Source: Rosistilla carotiformis
GTDB taxonomy: Bacteria; Planctomycetota; Planctomycetia; Pirellulales; Pirellulaceae
Reading direction: 5' to 3'
Assembly: GCF_007753095.1 (NCBI RefSeq)
Contig: NZ_CP036348.1
Location: 2,046,001-2,110,000, forward strand
Length of the DNA stretch: 64,000 bases
Shown: piece after piece, positions 55,949 through 61,506 of the stretch
Layout of the letters: each line of letters begins with the position of its first letter
How positions within the stretch are numbered: position 1 is the stretch's first letter
The notes under the pieces: model-generated
Seen by the model: only the letters and a program-made list of their open reading frames with translations
What the model was told of the DNA's origin: nothing
Database searches by the model: none
Program-made: the position numbers and the translations under genes

Positions 55949-58440
55949 TCGGCCGCCTCCGCAGTTGCAGGTTGGGGTGCGGGCTTCGATGCCGCAGCCG
56001 GCTTGGCTGTTTCGGCTTTGGCAACAGGCTTCTTCTCCGCAGCCTCTTCTTCGCTCGACTCTTTCCCCTTGTCAGCGTCCGACTTCTTCTTTGCTTCGTT
56101 TGCCTTTCGCATCGGGTTGGACGATTTCTTGTCCTTGTACAACTTAAATCGGCTGGGGACGATCCGCGGCGGATAGAAGTTGTTCGACGCATCGGTGTCG
56201 GCCAACTGGTGTCGCGGATCGAGCTCGATTCGGTCGAGTTCCTTGTCGGTGATCACCAGTTTGGAAACCGTCTTGTTGTTCGTTCGCCAGATCTCCGCCG
56301 GAATCTCCAACATCTGTTTCGATCCGTCGGTGTAGCGGATCTCGGCGATGATCGGCATCACCAGACCGCCAACGTTTTCAAAGGTCAGGACGTAGAAGTT
56401 CGTCTTGCGACGGATCAGTTGTTTCTCTTCGGCGTTCAGGCTTTCGACAAACTTCTGAAACGCTTTCCGCGAATCCTCGGTGACTTCCAGTTCGTCGAAG
56501 TCGTTGTAAAAGTCTTTCAGGCCAGGGAACAGATCGATCCGTTTTTGCAGCGGTTCGTTCCGCTCAGCCGACAGCGATGGCCGCCGCTTATCTTTTTCCT
56601 GACGCTTGCGTTCGGCCTCTTCATCGGGATCGGAGCTGTCGATCTGATACAGCTTGACGTCGCGGATCGCGAGATCGACGTGGTCGGTGCTGTAAAACCA
56701 TCCGTTCCAAAACCAATCCAGGTCGACTCCCGAAGCATCTTCCATCGTGCGGAAGAAATCGGCCGGCGTGGGGCGTTTGAATTTCCAGCGACGGGCGTAT
56801 TCGCGGAAGGCAAAATCGAACAGCTCGCGGCCCAGGATCGTTTCTCGCAAGATGTTCAGCGCCGTCGCCGGTTTGCCGTAGGCGTTGCTGCCAAACTGCA
56901 GGATCGATTCGCTGTTGGTCATGATCGGCACCTGGCCGCTGCTGCGCATGTAACCGGTGATATCCTCCGGCTCCCCTCGCTTGCTCGGGTAATCCTCTTC
57001 CCATTCCTGTTCGGCGAGGTACTGCAAAAACGTATTGAGCCCCTCGTCCATCCAGGTCCATTGCCGTTCGTCGCTGTTGACGATCATCGGGAAATAATTG
57101 TGCCCGACCTCGTGGATGATCACCGAGATCAATCCGTATTTGGTCCGGGCGGTGTAGGTCTTATCCTCCTCCGGTCGCGGCCCGTTGAAACAGATCATCG
57201 GATACTCCATCCCGTAGACCGGACCGTTGACACTGATCGCGATCGGGTAGGGGTAATCGAAGGTGTAGCGGCTGTAGACGTCCAACGTGTGGATGATCGC
57301 GTGTGTCGAATACTTGCTCCACAACGGTTCGGCTTCGTTCGGATAATACGACATCGCCATCACGGGGTTCTCGTTTTGGTCGTGACCTTGAGCGTCCCAG
57401 ATGAACTTGCGACTGCTGGCCCATGCGAAATCGCGAACGTTTTCAGCATGGTAGACCCAGGTCTTGTCCTGCTTGCTGCGATCCTTCTGATTCTTCAAAG
57501 CTTCTTCAGGCGTGACGACGAAGACAGGTTCTTTGGCGGTCTTCGCCTTTTCCAGCCGCTCCCGCTGCGTTTCGGTGAGCACTTCTTCGCCGTTTTGCAA
57601 CACGCCGGTCGCCGCGACGATGTGATCTTCTGGAGCGGTGATCCGGACCTCGAAATCGCCTAGCTCCAGCGTGAACTCACCGCGTCCCAAGAACTGTTTG
57701 TTCTGCCAGCCTTCGTAATCGGTGAACGCGGCGACGCGTGGATACCAGTGCGCGATCTCGTAGATGTAGTTGCCATCTTTCTCGAAGAACTCGTACCCCG
57801 TCCGGGCGTGAATTAGTTTGCTGTCGTTAATCAAGTAGTCGAAGCGAATTTTGACGGTCGTCGATTCGCCAGGCGGCAGTGGCGTGGGCAGATCGATCCG
57901 CATCATCGTCTTGACGATCGTGTATTTCAGCGGTCCGCCCTCGGCATCGGTCACGCCGTGGATCTTGAAGCCTCCTTCAAACGATTCCCGTGCAAGGAGC
58001 GATCGAATCGTATTAAAGGATGCGCGGTCGGAGAGATTCGGTGCCGTCGCGGTTGCGATCGCGTCGGATCCCGGTTCAAAGATGTTCTGGTCCAATTGGA
58101 TCCACAGGAACCCCAGCGGCTCGGGAGCGTGGTTGTGGTAGTGGATCGTTTCGCTGCCGGTGATCTTCTGGTTCTGGTCGTCTAACCGCACGTCGATCTT
58201 GTAGTCGGCTCGCTGCTGCCAATATTCCGGGCCGGGCATTCCCGATGCGGAGCGGTATTTATTGGGCGTTGGCAGCCACTGGTCGATCTGCCGAAAATCA
58301 TCGGTCTGACCGTATTTATTGTTCGGCCGCGGTTGAGCTTGGCTGGCTACCGGTTCGATGGCAGCGTGGGCAATCAAAATCGCCAAGGCCAGGATGGGAA
58401 GAGAGGATCGTCGAAAGAACACGACCATGGAGAGTCTCAT
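55945..58440 (-). CDS. M1-family zinc metallopeptidase, exported
   Basis: An 831-residue gluzincin peptidase, probably an aminopeptidase acting in the periplasm. I use the ATG at 58440: MRLSMVVFFRRSSLPILALA gives a signal peptide; an ATG at 58428 is also possible. The zinc site is IIHEVGHNYFPMIVNSDERQ followed by WTWMDEGLNTFLQYLAE, giving HExxH near residue 444 and the third ligand Glu about 22 residues on. This is a leukotriene A4 hydrolase/tricorn-factor-like M1 domain. The N-terminus (DYKIDVRLDDQNQKITGSET) matches the usual beta-saddle. The last ~60 residues are a low-complexity Lys/Glu/Ala/Pro tail. It overlaps the downstream DUF6702-like gene. Confidence 0.92.
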   Translation of the reverse strand: MRLSMVVFFRRSSLPILALAILIAHAAIEPVASQAQPRPNNKYGQTDDFRQIDQWLPTPNKYRSASGMPGPEYWQQRADYKIDVRLDDQNQKITGSETIHYHNHAPEPLGFLWIQLDQNIFEPGSDAIATATAPNLSDRASFNTIRSLLARESFEGGFKIHGVTDAEGGPLKYTIVKTMMRIDLPTPLPPGESTTVKIRFDYLINDSKLIHARTGYEFFEKDGNYIYEIAHWYPRVAAFTDYEGWQNKQFLGRGEFTLELGDFEVRITAPEDHIVAATGVLQNGEEVLTETQRERLEKAKTAKEPVFVVTPEEALKNQKDRSKQDKTWVYHAENVRDFAWASSRKFIWDAQGHDQNENPVMAMSYYPNEAEPLWSKYSTHAIIHTLDVYSRYTFDYPYPIAISVNGPVYGMEYPMICFNGPRPEEDKTYTARTKYGLISVIIHEVGHNYFPMIVNSDERQWTWMDEGLNTFLQYLAEQEWEEDYPSKRGEPEDITGYMRSSGQVPIMTNSESILQFGSNAYGKPATALNILRETILGRELFDFAFREYARRWKFKRPTPADFFRTMEDASGVDLDWFWNGWFYSTDHVDLAIRDVKLYQIDSSDPDEEAERKRQEKDKRRPSLSAERNEPLQKRIDLFPGLKDFYNDFDELEVTEDSRKAFQKFVESLNAEEKQLIRRKTNFYVLTFENVGGLVMPIIAEIRYTDGSKQMLEIPAEIWRTNNKTVSKLVITDKELDRIELDPRHQLADTDASNNFYPPRIVPSRFKLYKDKKSSNPMRKANEAKKKSDADKGKESSEEEAAEKKPVAKAETAKPAAASKPAPQPATAEAAE

Positions 58441-58754
58441 CAAGTAGGTGGGAAGGCATGGTGCAAAGCAGCGTCTGTACAATCATAGTACAACGAACAC
58501 GGGGCGGGGAACGGAAAGCATCCCCCACACGCCCAGCTTATCTCTTTCGTCCACCCACGCCGGCACCAGCGCAGGTTTAGCGGTCGCGATACGGGCCTTG
58601 CCGCAGCAAAACGCGTCTTCAATGCATCGACTGAGGCTCAAATAGCCTGAGGTCAAACCTCCAAAGGAAGGTCGTGCGCATCGCGTCTACCGAAATCAAC
58701 GGCTTGTGCACGCATACGTTCTAGCCACAGAGATCACAGAGGACACAGAGCACG
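58441..58754. other. Divergent region before the GxxExxY gene, 314 bases
   Basis: No gene. The last 30 bases carry gccacagagatcacagag followed by gacacagagcacg (58724-58754), three spaced CACAGAG motifs that reach the ATG of the GxxExxY gene and match the starts of the units in the tandem array beyond that gene. Confidence 0.5.
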
Positions 58755-59120
58755 ATGAGCGATGACCTGACAGAGAAGATAATTGGGGCCGCGATTGAGG
58801 TGCATCGTGTTTTGGGCCCGGGGTTACTGGAGTCTATCTACGAGGAAGCACTTTGTTATGAACTCCACATACGTGGCATCGCATGCGAACGACAAAAAGA
58901 AATCGATGTGATGTATAAGGGACACATCATCAAGGGACAAAAGCTTGATCTAATGGTTGAGGGTGAGGTGGTCGTGGAATTGAAAGCGGTCCAAAAGCTT
59001 CCCGACGTGGCTACGGCTCAAACGTTGTCCTATCTCAAATCCACTGGATTGAGGCGGGCACTACTCATGAATTTCGGTCAGGCGAGGCTTGTTGACGGCA
59101 TAAAGCGACTTTCTCTGTAA
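58755..59120 (+). CDS. GxxExxY protein, PD-(D/E)XK-like
   Basis: A 121-residue protein of the GxxExxY family (TIGR04256-like). The name motif is G23-L-L-E26-S-I-Y29. Asp65, Glu75 and Lys77 in LDLMVEGEVVVELKAVQ form a D...ExK pattern like the PD-(D/E)XK nuclease superfamily; nuclease activity has not, to my knowledge, been shown. Family members are scattered singly among bacteria. The start is clear because family similarity begins at the ATG. The gene is immediately preceded by spaced CACAGAG motifs and followed 45 bases later by eight tandem repeat units carrying the same motif. Composition is more AT rich than the neighbours by eye, which suggests transfer as a unit with the repeats. Confidence 0.92.
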   Translation: MSDDLTEKIIGAAIEVHRVLGPGLLESIYEEALCYELHIRGIACERQKEIDVMYKGHIIKGQKLDLMVEGEVVVELKAVQKLPDVATAQTLSYLKSTGLRRALLMNFGQARLVDGIKRLSL

Positions 59121-59164
59121 AATCTGCCATACCAGGAATATGCCTCGATCGCAGGTGCCATCGA

Positions 59165-60138
59165 GCCACAGAGGGCACCGAGAACACAGACGGTCACCAG
59201 ACAAAAACTCATTGGCCTCTGAGTCCTCTGTGGCAAGCTTCGAGTATTTATTCTGCCGCACAAGAATGACGCCGCCACCGCCGACGTGACTGTGAGCCAC
59301 AGAGGTCACCGAGAACACAGAGGATCACCAGACAAAAACTCATTGGCCTCTGAGTCCTCTGTGGCAAGCTTCGAGTATTTATTCTGCCGCCCATGAATGA
59401 CGCCGCCACCGCCGACGTGACACTGTGGGCCACAGAGGGCACCGAGAACACAGAGGATCACCAGACAAAAACTCAGTGGCCTCTGAGTCCTCTGTGGCAA
59501 GCTTCGAGAATTTATTCTGCCGCACATGAATTGCGCCGCCACCGCCGACGTGACACTGTGAGCCACAGAGGTCACCGAGAACACAGAGGATCACCAGATA
59601 AAAACTCAGTCGCCTCTGAGTCCTCTGTGGCAAGCTTCGAGAATTTATTCTGCCGCCCATGAATTGCGCCGCCACCGCCGACGTGACACTGTGAGCCACA
59701 GAGGGCACCGAGAACACAGAGGATCACCAGACAAAAGCTCAGTGGCCTCTGAGTCCTCTGTGGCAAGCTTCGAGAATCTATTCTGCCGCACATGAATGAC
59801 GCCGTCACCACCGCGTAACTGTGAGCCACAGAGGGCCACCAGACAAAAACTCAGTGGCCTCTGAGTCCTCTGTGGCAAGCTTCGAGAATTTATTCTGCGG
59901 CACATGAATGACGCCGTCACCACCGACGTGACTGTGAGCCACAGAGGTCACCGAGAACACAGAGGGTCACCAGACAAAAACTCATTGGCCTCTGAGTCCT
60001 CTGTGGCAAGCTTCGAGAATTTATTCTGCGGCACATGAATGACGCCGTCACCACCGACGTGACTGTGAGCCACAGAGGTCACCGAGAACACAGAGGATCA
60101 CCAGACAAAAACTCAGTGGCCTCTGAGTCCTCTGTGGC
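59165..60138. repeat. Eight-copy tandem array, ~131-bp unit, CACAGAG inverted arms
   Basis: Units begin with gccacagag at 59165, 59296, 59429, 59562, 59695, 59825, 59938 and 60069; spacings are 131, 133, 133, 133, 130, 113 and 131. Each unit has a ~70-bp block bounded by gccacagagg and its complement cctctgtggc, then a ~60-bp linker beginning aagcttcgag and ending near gtgactgtga. The sixth unit lacks about 20 bases of the left arm region (the gagaacacagaggatc part). The eighth ends with the right arm at 60138 and has no linker. Minus-strand frames of 60-112 codons through it are repetitive artefacts. The units differ at scattered positions, so the array is not freshly amplified. Confidence 0.93.
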
Positions 60139-60261
60139 ACGTTACCAATAACTGCAATCGCGTCATACCGAATCGAATGGGACCGATGGCCACTGCAATT
60201 CAAAATGGCCCAGCAGACGGCACAACGGCTACGCGCTTCGTACATCCGAACAAGCAGCGAC

Positions 60262-61506
60262 TCAGGCCGAAACCTCCGACCACAACCGCAACAATTCCTG
60301 CAGGTGCTCGACCGCCTGGATCATCTCTTCCAGGCATGCGAATTCGTGTAGCGAATGGATCGCGTGCTGACCGCTGGAGAGGTTTGGCGTCGGCAGCCCC
60401 TTCTCCGTCAACGCCGAACCATCGGTCCCGCCGCGGATGATGCTGCGTCGGACCGGGCGGCCCAGGTTTCGGAACGCCTGCTCCGCCAGATCGGCCACCC
60501 GCGGATTCTCTCGCAAACCGTCGGCCATGTTGCGGTATTGCGGTTTGACTTCGACGCGGACCGCGAGACCGGGATATTGCTTTTCAGTCGCCGTTGCCGC
60601 TTGCCGCAGTCGATCGGCGTATTGAGTCAGCTCCGCCGTATCGAAGCTCCTCAACAGCACGCGTAATTCCGCCCGGCCGACGCCACCTTCGATCTCATAC
60701 GGATGGATGAATCCGTCGCGGCCATCGGTCGATTCGGGAGATAGCGAATCGTCGGGCAACTGCTGCAGAAAGAAGCCCGCCGCGCGCGTCGCGTTGACCA
60801 TCCGCCCTTTGCCGATCGACGGATGGATGTTCCGCCCGGTAAAGGTGACCCGCACCCCATCGGCCGAAAAAGTTTCGACGTCCAAATCTCCCGCTCCGCC
60901 ACCGTCCAACGTGTAAGCGGCGACGGCATCCAATTGAGCCAAGTCGATCTTGTCGGTGCCGTGTCCGATTTCTTCGTCGCAGCTGAACAAGATCTTGACC
61001 GGACCGTGGGGCAGTTGCGGATTTTCGATCAGCGTCGCCACCAATTCCATGATGATCGCCACGCCCGCTTTGTCATCGCCTCCCAACAGCGTCGTGCCAT
61101 CGGTGGTGATCAAGGTCTTGCCGACCAGATCGGCCAGTTCGGGACAGTCGGCGACGCGGATGACTTGATTGTCTTCGGGCAGCGGAATATCGCCTCCCTG
61201 ATAAACGATCACCTGCGGCTTCACATCGTCGCCGGGAGCTTCGGGCGATGTATCGACATGGGAGTTCAGTGCGATCGCCGAAGCGCCAGCGACGTTTGCT
61301 GGGACCGTTCCCCAGACCAAACCGTGGTCGTCCATGTGCGCATCGGCTACGCCCAGTTCTACCAATTGCTCCGCCAACACGCGGCTCAAATCCTTCTGCT
61401 GCGGACTGCTGGGATAGGTCTCGCTGTGCGGGTCGGCCGCAGTGCCGATCTGAACATATTGCAGGAAACGTTGCAGCAGACGCTCGCGGTTAACAGGAAC
61501 AATCAT
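60262..61506 (-). CDS. pepT: Peptidase T (tripeptide aminopeptidase)
   Basis: Cytoplasmic M20B zinc peptidase that removes the N-terminal residue from tripeptides. The 414-residue product has NSHVDTSPEAPG (metal His83, catalytic Asp85), LITTDGTTLLGGDDKAGVAI (bridging Asp), ILFSCDEEIGHGTDKI (catalytic Glu pair), HPSIGKGRMVNA in the lid domain and a C-terminal RGGTDGSALTEKGLPTPNLS. These are PepT hallmarks and all metal ligands are present. It lies 123 bases beyond the tandem array. Confidence 0.95.
   Translation of the reverse strand: MIVPVNRERLLQRFLQYVQIGTAADPHSETYPSSPQQKDLSRVLAEQLVELGVADAHMDDHGLVWGTVPANVAGASAIALNSHVDTSPEAPGDDVKPQVIVYQGGDIPLPEDNQVIRVADCPELADLVGKTLITTDGTTLLGGDDKAGVAIIMELVATLIENPQLPHGPVKILFSCDEEIGHGTDKIDLAQLDAVAAYTLDGGGAGDLDVETFSADGVRVTFTGRNIHPSIGKGRMVNATRAAGFFLQQLPDDSLSPESTDGRDGFIHPYEIEGGVGRAELRVLLRSFDTAELTQYADRLRQAATATEKQYPGLAVRVEVKPQYRNMADGLRENPRVADLAEQAFRNLGRPVRRSIIRGGTDGSALTEKGLPTPNLSSGQHAIHSLHEFACLEEMIQAVEHLQELLRLWSEVSA

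Follow-up and report, generated by a model that had tools for sequence, protein, structure and literature searches.

The GxxExxY gene and its flanking repeats

The window, by which we mean the whole 64,000-nucleotide stretch of DNA analysed (G000:C1:2046001-2110000), comes from the 7.44-Mb single-contig genome of Rosistilla carotiformis, here called G000. Between two long ORFs lies a small gene of the GxxExxY family, with spaced copies of the word CACAGAG just before its start codon and an array of palindromes behind it. The features, numbered by position in the window, are as follows:

58724..58750, + strand: 5' arm, GCCACAGAG-AT-CACAGAG-GA-CACAGAG, three words at 9-bp spacing, ending 4 bases before the ATG
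58755..59120, + strand: GxxExxY gene, a 121 amino acid PD-(D/E)XK nuclease-like protein
59163..60139, no strand: tandem array, each period made up of a palindrome and a local spacer of 60-63 bp (TRF, period 131-133)
59165..59234, no strand: palindrome unit 1, with three words, a loop, and the three words again in inverted orientation
59296..59365, no strand: palindrome unit 2, the window unit whose single-strand folding was tested
59429..59498, no strand: palindrome unit 3
59562..59631, no strand: palindrome unit 4
59695..59764, no strand: palindrome unit 5
59825..59876, no strand: palindrome unit 6, internally truncated to about 52 bp
59938..60007, no strand: palindrome unit 7
60069..60138, no strand: palindrome unit 8

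The words of the 5' arm start at 58726, 58735, and 58744, the first of them inside GCCACAGAG, which itself starts at 58724. The array starts 44 bases past the GxxExxY stop; seven of its eight palindromes are full length (70 bp) and one is shortened, with start-to-start distances of 113-133 bp. CACAGAG occurs 26 times in the window, and 25 of these copies lie at 58726-60136, versus a mean of 5.78 and a largest value of 12 for the whole window in 100 dinucleotide shuffles. The original prediction of three CACAGAG words before the ATG and eight units downstream was thus correct. It also gave each unit a second copy of the word about 20 bases on; this copy is present, 18 bases on, but it is really the third word of the arm, is intact in six of the eight units, and follows a middle word that has diverged to CACCGAG. 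The outer half of unit 8 would correspond to the position of the 3' arm in a simple unit. At the window, as in G158 and G169, the 5' arm is present and palindromes or direct copies replace the simple 3' arm. A search of positions 58400-60400 against Rfam found no known RNA family above its gathering score.

The window protein is a member of TIGR04256 (138.8 bits, E 9.9e-41; curated cut-off 35 bits) and of PF13366 (PDDEXK_3; 137 bits, E 4.7e-40; cut-off 22 bits), library entries that offer a name and a superfamily, but neither an element nor a function. Its sequence contains the pattern E26, D65, E75-x-K77, and Q89-xxx-Y93, the last of which we take to be the QxxxY motif of the RecB/Cas4/lambda-exonuclease branch, and E26, D65, E75, K77, Q89, and Y93 are invariant or nearly so in GxxExxY proteins. 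The D...ExK nuclease pattern first noticed in this one protein corresponds to D65, E75, and K77, and the six residues would fit an active nuclease of that branch. An AlphaFold2 model had a mean pLDDT of 95.6; its top Foldseek matches were 4ic1 (SSO0001, presumably a Cas4), LHK-Exo, lambda exonuclease, and MGME1, at E 0.001-0.05. The fold likeness is modest, no match to the model falling below E 0.001, and a PDB sequence search gave no match. Taking the strong motif and the modest fold match together, we regard the GxxExxY protein as a predicted PD-(D/E)XK nuclease of the RecB/Cas4/lambda-exonuclease branch.

GxxExxY matches were present in 70/149 sampled genomes of the window's phylum. No link of PDDEXK_3 to repeats was found in 5.39 million open papers, most subscription papers lying outside that scope, and six 15-mers of the words were absent from them; nor did they yield an account of the arm-gene-arm layout, except for a paper on Coxiella (PMC4990558) discussed below. 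In PMC8934634, a GxxExxY gene is reported to adjoin a reverse transcriptase.

Word arrays beside other GxxExxY genes

The search of 149 genomes of the phylum supplied 110 GxxExxY loci. By eye, many GxxExxY genes have about three 7-nt words near the start and the same words inverted just past the stop, at a spacing of 8-10 bp. Comparing the two flanks of 111 genes (2/113 were left out because of short flanks) gave a median inverted match of 21; mismatched flanks had a median of 10 and random positions of the same locus one of 12. In all, 53/111 genes exceeded the 99% level of the random same-locus positions, versus 12/1101 mismatched pairs. Among 80 further loci from a wider genome-contig scan, in which 18 phyla were named, two of them archaeal, 38 passed the 99% level, and 49 scored 17 or more. 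Direct repeats were considered as element ends as well and were rejected, being weaker than inverted ones (median 12 vs. 21).

Iterated 7-nt words stood beside 144/192 genes, above the 99% level of simple shuffles, in a test that relied on a word pattern learnt from those very loci; 48/192 genes had no array above this threshold. When no word was preset, inverted iterated 7-mers were found on both sides of 138/186 genes (6/192 were left out), and 115/186 scored at least 4, versus 14/372 and 0/372 for block shuffles. Mismatched flanks were positive in 59/186 cases because common words recur between genes. The arrays are specific to the gene: only 5/30 ParE toxin genes were positive, and none scored 4 or above. 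Own-genome duplicates and a weak match at 1947 kb were left out, as was, from the word test on, a 269 amino acid gene at 816 kb. Within the window's own family, 17/29 loci passed the word-test threshold and 12/29 fell below it. Searching GxxExxY flanks for a shared motif, as had been proposed, was therefore positive in both the inverted and the word test. The motif itself, put forward as CACAGAG/CGCAGAG, survives in that iterated words do flank the genes, but it is a family of words that differs by gene and tracks the protein; the observation of flanking words is more general than was first claimed.

The gene at 816 kb (L007, G000:C1:816381-816707), a longer GxxExxY relative, shows no visible word arrays; downstream of it, a 14-bp direct repeat, GGATGATGTTGGCA, occurs in many copies.

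Words vary from gene to gene, and this variation follows the protein tree. Among the 144 genes, it was CACAGAG in 47, CACGGAG in 13, CGCAGAG in 12, and CGCAAAG in 7; CGCAGAT, CACAGAT, and CGCCAAG were rarer, at six each, and CACGAAT, CATGAAG, and ACAGGAT were also seen. Pairs of genes shared an identical word in 3% of cases at 30-40% protein identity, in 22% at 50-60%, and in 83% of the 36 pairs above 70%. The Mantel correlation of word with protein similarity (one of the 144 genes was dropped by length) was -0.33, the most extreme of 1000 permutations reaching -0.16. On the protein tree, the last base of the word changed 16 times, versus 34-38 in 100 shuffles, and the whole word changed 75 times, versus 89-96; positions 2, 4, and 5 followed a pattern like that of the last base. 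Gly115 accompanies 97/105 words ending in G and 0/21 ending in T, a link that may reflect one deep split, there being two informative pairs. No residue-to-base association survived correction for 792 tests. The best was G at word position 5 with Thr6 (supported by 10 pairs and contradicted by none, with 10 more showing no difference; p 0.002 uncorrected), and residues 2, 3, 6, and 7 accounted for six of the nine best, likewise uncorrected; the N-terminal helix may carry the word code. The word differs between elements as if each bore its own address code.

We think it somewhat more probable than its opposite that the GxxExxY gene and its two arms constitute a compact selfish element whose protein recognises its own iterated ends. 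The ends, distribution, and derivatives of the unit bear on this reading.

Ends, spread, and gene-less copies of the unit

The units have sharp ends. In 62 genes with three words per arm, identity between the two arms is 0.92-0.99 at six of the seven word positions and 0.76 at position 4; it is 0.58 in the spacers, drops to 0.38-0.39 once six to seven nt outward of the first word, and is about 0.33 further out, and the unit edge reads roughly TTnACC. Units with two or more words per side, 123 in all, span 405-726 bp (median 462 bp), leaving room for little besides the gene. A target-site duplication was not detected in these units at offsets of 0-8 nt and lengths of 2-14 nt (mean identity 0.12-0.36), and exact repeats of 5 nt or more at the unit edges occurred in at most 1/123 at each of offsets 4-6.

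Word spacing is equal on both sides in 57/62 genes with three words per arm. Because spacer identity is also above background, pairing of the arms may matter too, and one could suppose that they pair in the transcript as a long stem, kept for RNA processing by, for example, RNase III. The Coxiella 23S intervening sequence (IVS) offers a precedent, being described in PMC4990558 as a 428-nt insert with a 28-bp terminal stem that is excised by RNase III. Single-stranded DNA folding is in keeping with such a stem in 4/4 palindromes (one window unit and three elsewhere in the genome), with z-scores of -3.9 to -6.2. However, spacer identity is well below that of the words, and position 4 often differs between the arms, so it is the words that are kept rather than a perfect stem; furthermore, pairing alone explains neither three copies per arm nor the covariation with the protein. 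We consider RNA processing an improbable account of the arms.

Units also appear to have moved between lineages. Three loci from three genera of the window's family (L277, L279, and L284) are 78-81% identical over 431-433 bp, outer edge to outer edge, and their flanks have no mutual match at E 1e-3. The eleven closest relatives of the window protein (L187-L197; 61-80% protein identity) all have a CACAGAG-type arm upstream, no more than 80 nt away in nine of them and further off in L188 and L197. An inverted arm lies behind the gene in 9/11, the others being L194, which has a direct copy, and L197, where the contig ends. Together with the window, these form a 12-member clade (support 96 in a quick tree) in which all members have the window's word and which spans seven phyla: Planctomycetota, Pseudomonadota, Nitrospirota, Myxococcota, Fidelibacterota, Hydrogenedentota, and Spirochaetota. 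We read this distribution as probable horizontal spread. L190 and L192, both from Fidelibacterota, have a downstream flank in common.

Carriage as phage or plasmid cargo was rejected, as relatives are nearly absent from such records: a pattern-based scan of viral contigs found one, 50,697 phage records held none, and 8/72,556 plasmid records had relatives, all below 60% identity. The 3.3-kb locus L193, from a Deltaproteobacteria MAG, has several CACAGAG-type arms in addition to the GxxExxY unit's own; stretches at 13-180 and 2140-2301 show short similarities to arms found in other loci.

Palindromes built on the window's word are also numerous elsewhere in G000. At the loci selected by motif, they are mostly in tandem arrays, each array having a spacer particular to its location and a period of its own, for example, 131-133, 156, about 293, about 350, or 523 bp. 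Matches to a palindrome model on both strands numbered at least 105 in G000, at least 71 in the sister species G150, and at least 6 in the sister G149; these are lower bounds, as 150 candidates per genome were scored (78 in a survey of 60 genomes of the family, where every one of the 78 from G000 matched). The window's type of gene is missing from G149, whose GxxExxY matches are one gene 37% identical to the window's and one longer relative. Co-occurrence across the 60 family members is weak, GxxExxY genes being present in 16/18 genomes with palindromes versus 26/42 without. According to the original prediction, the link between gene and repeat would be coincidental if the array were just as frequent far from such genes; arrays far from GxxExxY genes do occur in G000, but they are to be expected of non-autonomous copies.

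Comparison of the sister species shows that the copy number of the array has changed. G150 has the GxxExxY gene and flanks at 97% identity and three palindrome units before the same right flank. The orthologous gap in G149 has neither gene nor array; it is short and filled with unrelated sequence rather than being a clean empty site. The eight-copy array tied to the gene in the original prediction is real here, but it reflects tandem amplification, at this place, of a palindrome without a gene and is not a general rule. A clean empty site for a gene-bearing unit was sought at the window and two other sites, and flanks were rearranged at all of them. Among the loci compared, no genome yielded nearly identical copies of a unit at unrelated sites; the most similar pair within a genome (L077/L079) is 85% identical over 461 bp, and the similarity continues beyond the unit.

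At G000:C1:717.7-719.5 kb (L006), three extra 523-bp units are present where both sisters have a plain single site. Each unit consists of 332 bp containing the palindrome and 191 bp of the 3' end of the adjacent gene (gene end judged by eye), so the gain is real but is a tandem duplication that includes host DNA. The gene concerned is moaA-like by eye. At three other places in G000 (L014, L015, and L016; C1:6.79, 6.96-6.98, and 7.35 Mb), palindromes are interleaved with other short palindromic repeats, for example, CTCCCGAAGGGAG and CCCCCGTCGGGGG, suggesting that several repeat families have piled up there.

Inspection by eye also found decayed units. In L317, both arms and both gene ends of a GxxExxY unit are kept and the middle is lost, and in L324-L328, remains of the gene lie close to a palindrome; internal deletion is thus a plausible origin of gene-less palindromes. 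The genomes G163 and G200 (L316-L334) have 18 and 22 GxxExxY matches, respectively, many of them fragments and some near palindromes; they look like a graveyard of GxxExxY units.

In 62 genes, a median of 22 nt separates the upstream arm from the start codon, a closeness that might be anticipated if the words were autoregulatory sites of a chromosomal nuclease gene, with the inverted 3' copy serving as a terminator or convergent operator. Ordinary regulation of that kind would not predict sharp symmetrical ends, horizontal spread as a unit, or scattered gene-less copies, and we judge it very improbable.

A second family and the nature of the units

The 23S-IVP family (PF05635) is a four-helix bundle and not a nuclease family. 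Nevertheless, among 45 IVP genes of the same phylum (the preset-free test left out L141, L145, L154, and the partial match L153 and covered 45 of the 46 genes given to it), inverted iterated words occurred on both sides in 32/45 and scored at least 4 in 23/45. Shuffles were positive in 2/90 cases and scored at least 4 in 0/90; the corresponding values for mismatched flanks were 7/43 and 2/43. In the flank-match test, 9/27 passed; L141, L145, and L154 were left out of the 30 because of short flanks. The IVP words are mostly contiguous heptamers such as GTGTCTG, TCGGGAA, and CAAGAGT (loci L127-L156 and L336-L355), apparently the layout of rRNA intervening sequences. In L142 (G034:C1:102071-102376), an IVP gene has GxxExxY-type arms, with GGCACGGA repeated at a period of 8, possibly through exchange of ends between the two kinds.

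PMC4990558 describes three tandem heptamers (GACAGAT) before the S23 ORF of the Coxiella IVS and ascribes the scattered distribution of IVSs to horizontal transfer. On this description, the Coxiella IVS looks like one case of a wider layout common to two unrelated proteins. GxxExxY units have a small ORF between inverted terminal word arrays and resemble the 23S rRNA IVS (S23p/IVP) in their length of ~430 bp, single small ORF, terminal inverted repeats, and iterated words before the ORF. They differ in that IVSs lie inside rRNA genes and carry the S23 ORF, whereas the window unit lies outside rRNA genes, between ORFs, and encodes a nuclease fold; GxxExxY words also mostly have an 8-10 bp period with free spacers.

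Since a non-nuclease family has the same layout, the nuclease may not be the mover of the element. The inverted arms could be the real mobile ends and the small protein an end-binding helper or cargo, with movement being due to host replication and repair (template switching or single-strand annealing) or to an unseen enzyme. Both the layout common to two unrelated families and the palindromes that ride in tandem amplifications with host DNA, as in the three 523-bp units added at 718 kb in G000, are consistent with this account. However, the words differ by family (mostly an 8-10 bp period vs. mostly contiguous heptamers) and follow the GxxExxY phylogeny. The protein is hence no arbitrary passenger, and we regard a purely auxiliary protein as unlikely, though less so than RNA processing or autoregulation.

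The reading that we favour remains that of a selfish element of ~460 bp, made up of three words, a small nuclease gene, and three inverted words. Its protein would most likely bind the word arrays that flank its own gene on either side and, being of the RecB/Cas4/lambda-exonuclease type, may cut or process DNA there. Repair or strand invasion, rather than a classical transposase, would then carry copies of the element and of its gene-less palindromic derivatives to new places; the GxxExxY protein would be the cause of this movement, and divergence of protein and word together would give rise to several element types per genome.

The arrangement had been likened to REP/RAYT systems, in which, according to PMC8266576, the repeat and the RAYT protein evolve together and RAYTs belong to the HUH enzymes, their substrate being the single-stranded hairpins of REPs. 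The likeness to these systems (TnpA-REP, REPINs) extends to a gene beside its own repeats, scattered gene-less palindromes related to the gene's flanks, and coevolution of repeat and protein. The gene, however, is no RAYT: the window protein matches PF13366, and its structural model is PD-(D/E)XK-like rather than that of an HUH/Y1 transposase, and GxxExxY units further differ in having iterated-word ends and in occurring in many phyla. By analogy, REP/RAYT may be a good description of how the GxxExxY unit works, but membership fails on the enzyme. MITEs and insertion sequences have inverted ends and internally deleted derivatives in common with GxxExxY units, but the latter have no detected target-site duplication and no room for a known transposase beside the 121 amino acid protein.

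Mirror-image word sets, covariation of word and protein, and gene-less copies are together suggestive of miniature selfish DNA elements that form a class so far overlooked. More tentatively, at somewhat less than even likelihood, GxxExxY and IVP may be two lineages of one unrecognised class of this kind, in which a protein of ~120 amino acids reads an evolvable word of ~7 nt at its own inverted ends; rRNA IVSs would be those members that inserted into 23S genes, and the REP-like palindromes of environmental bacteria would in many cases be what is left once the gene is lost. If this is true, the widespread GxxExxY family, for which the libraries hold no function, would gain a testable role in the recognition of its own ends, and a nuclease-based, transposase-free kind would be added to the known miniature elements. 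It would also account for a stock of short palindromic repeats and tie these to the puzzle of rRNA intervening sequences, and it would provide a naturally occurring set of small, putatively sequence-specific DNA-binding proteins, the targets of which can be read from the flanks of their genes.
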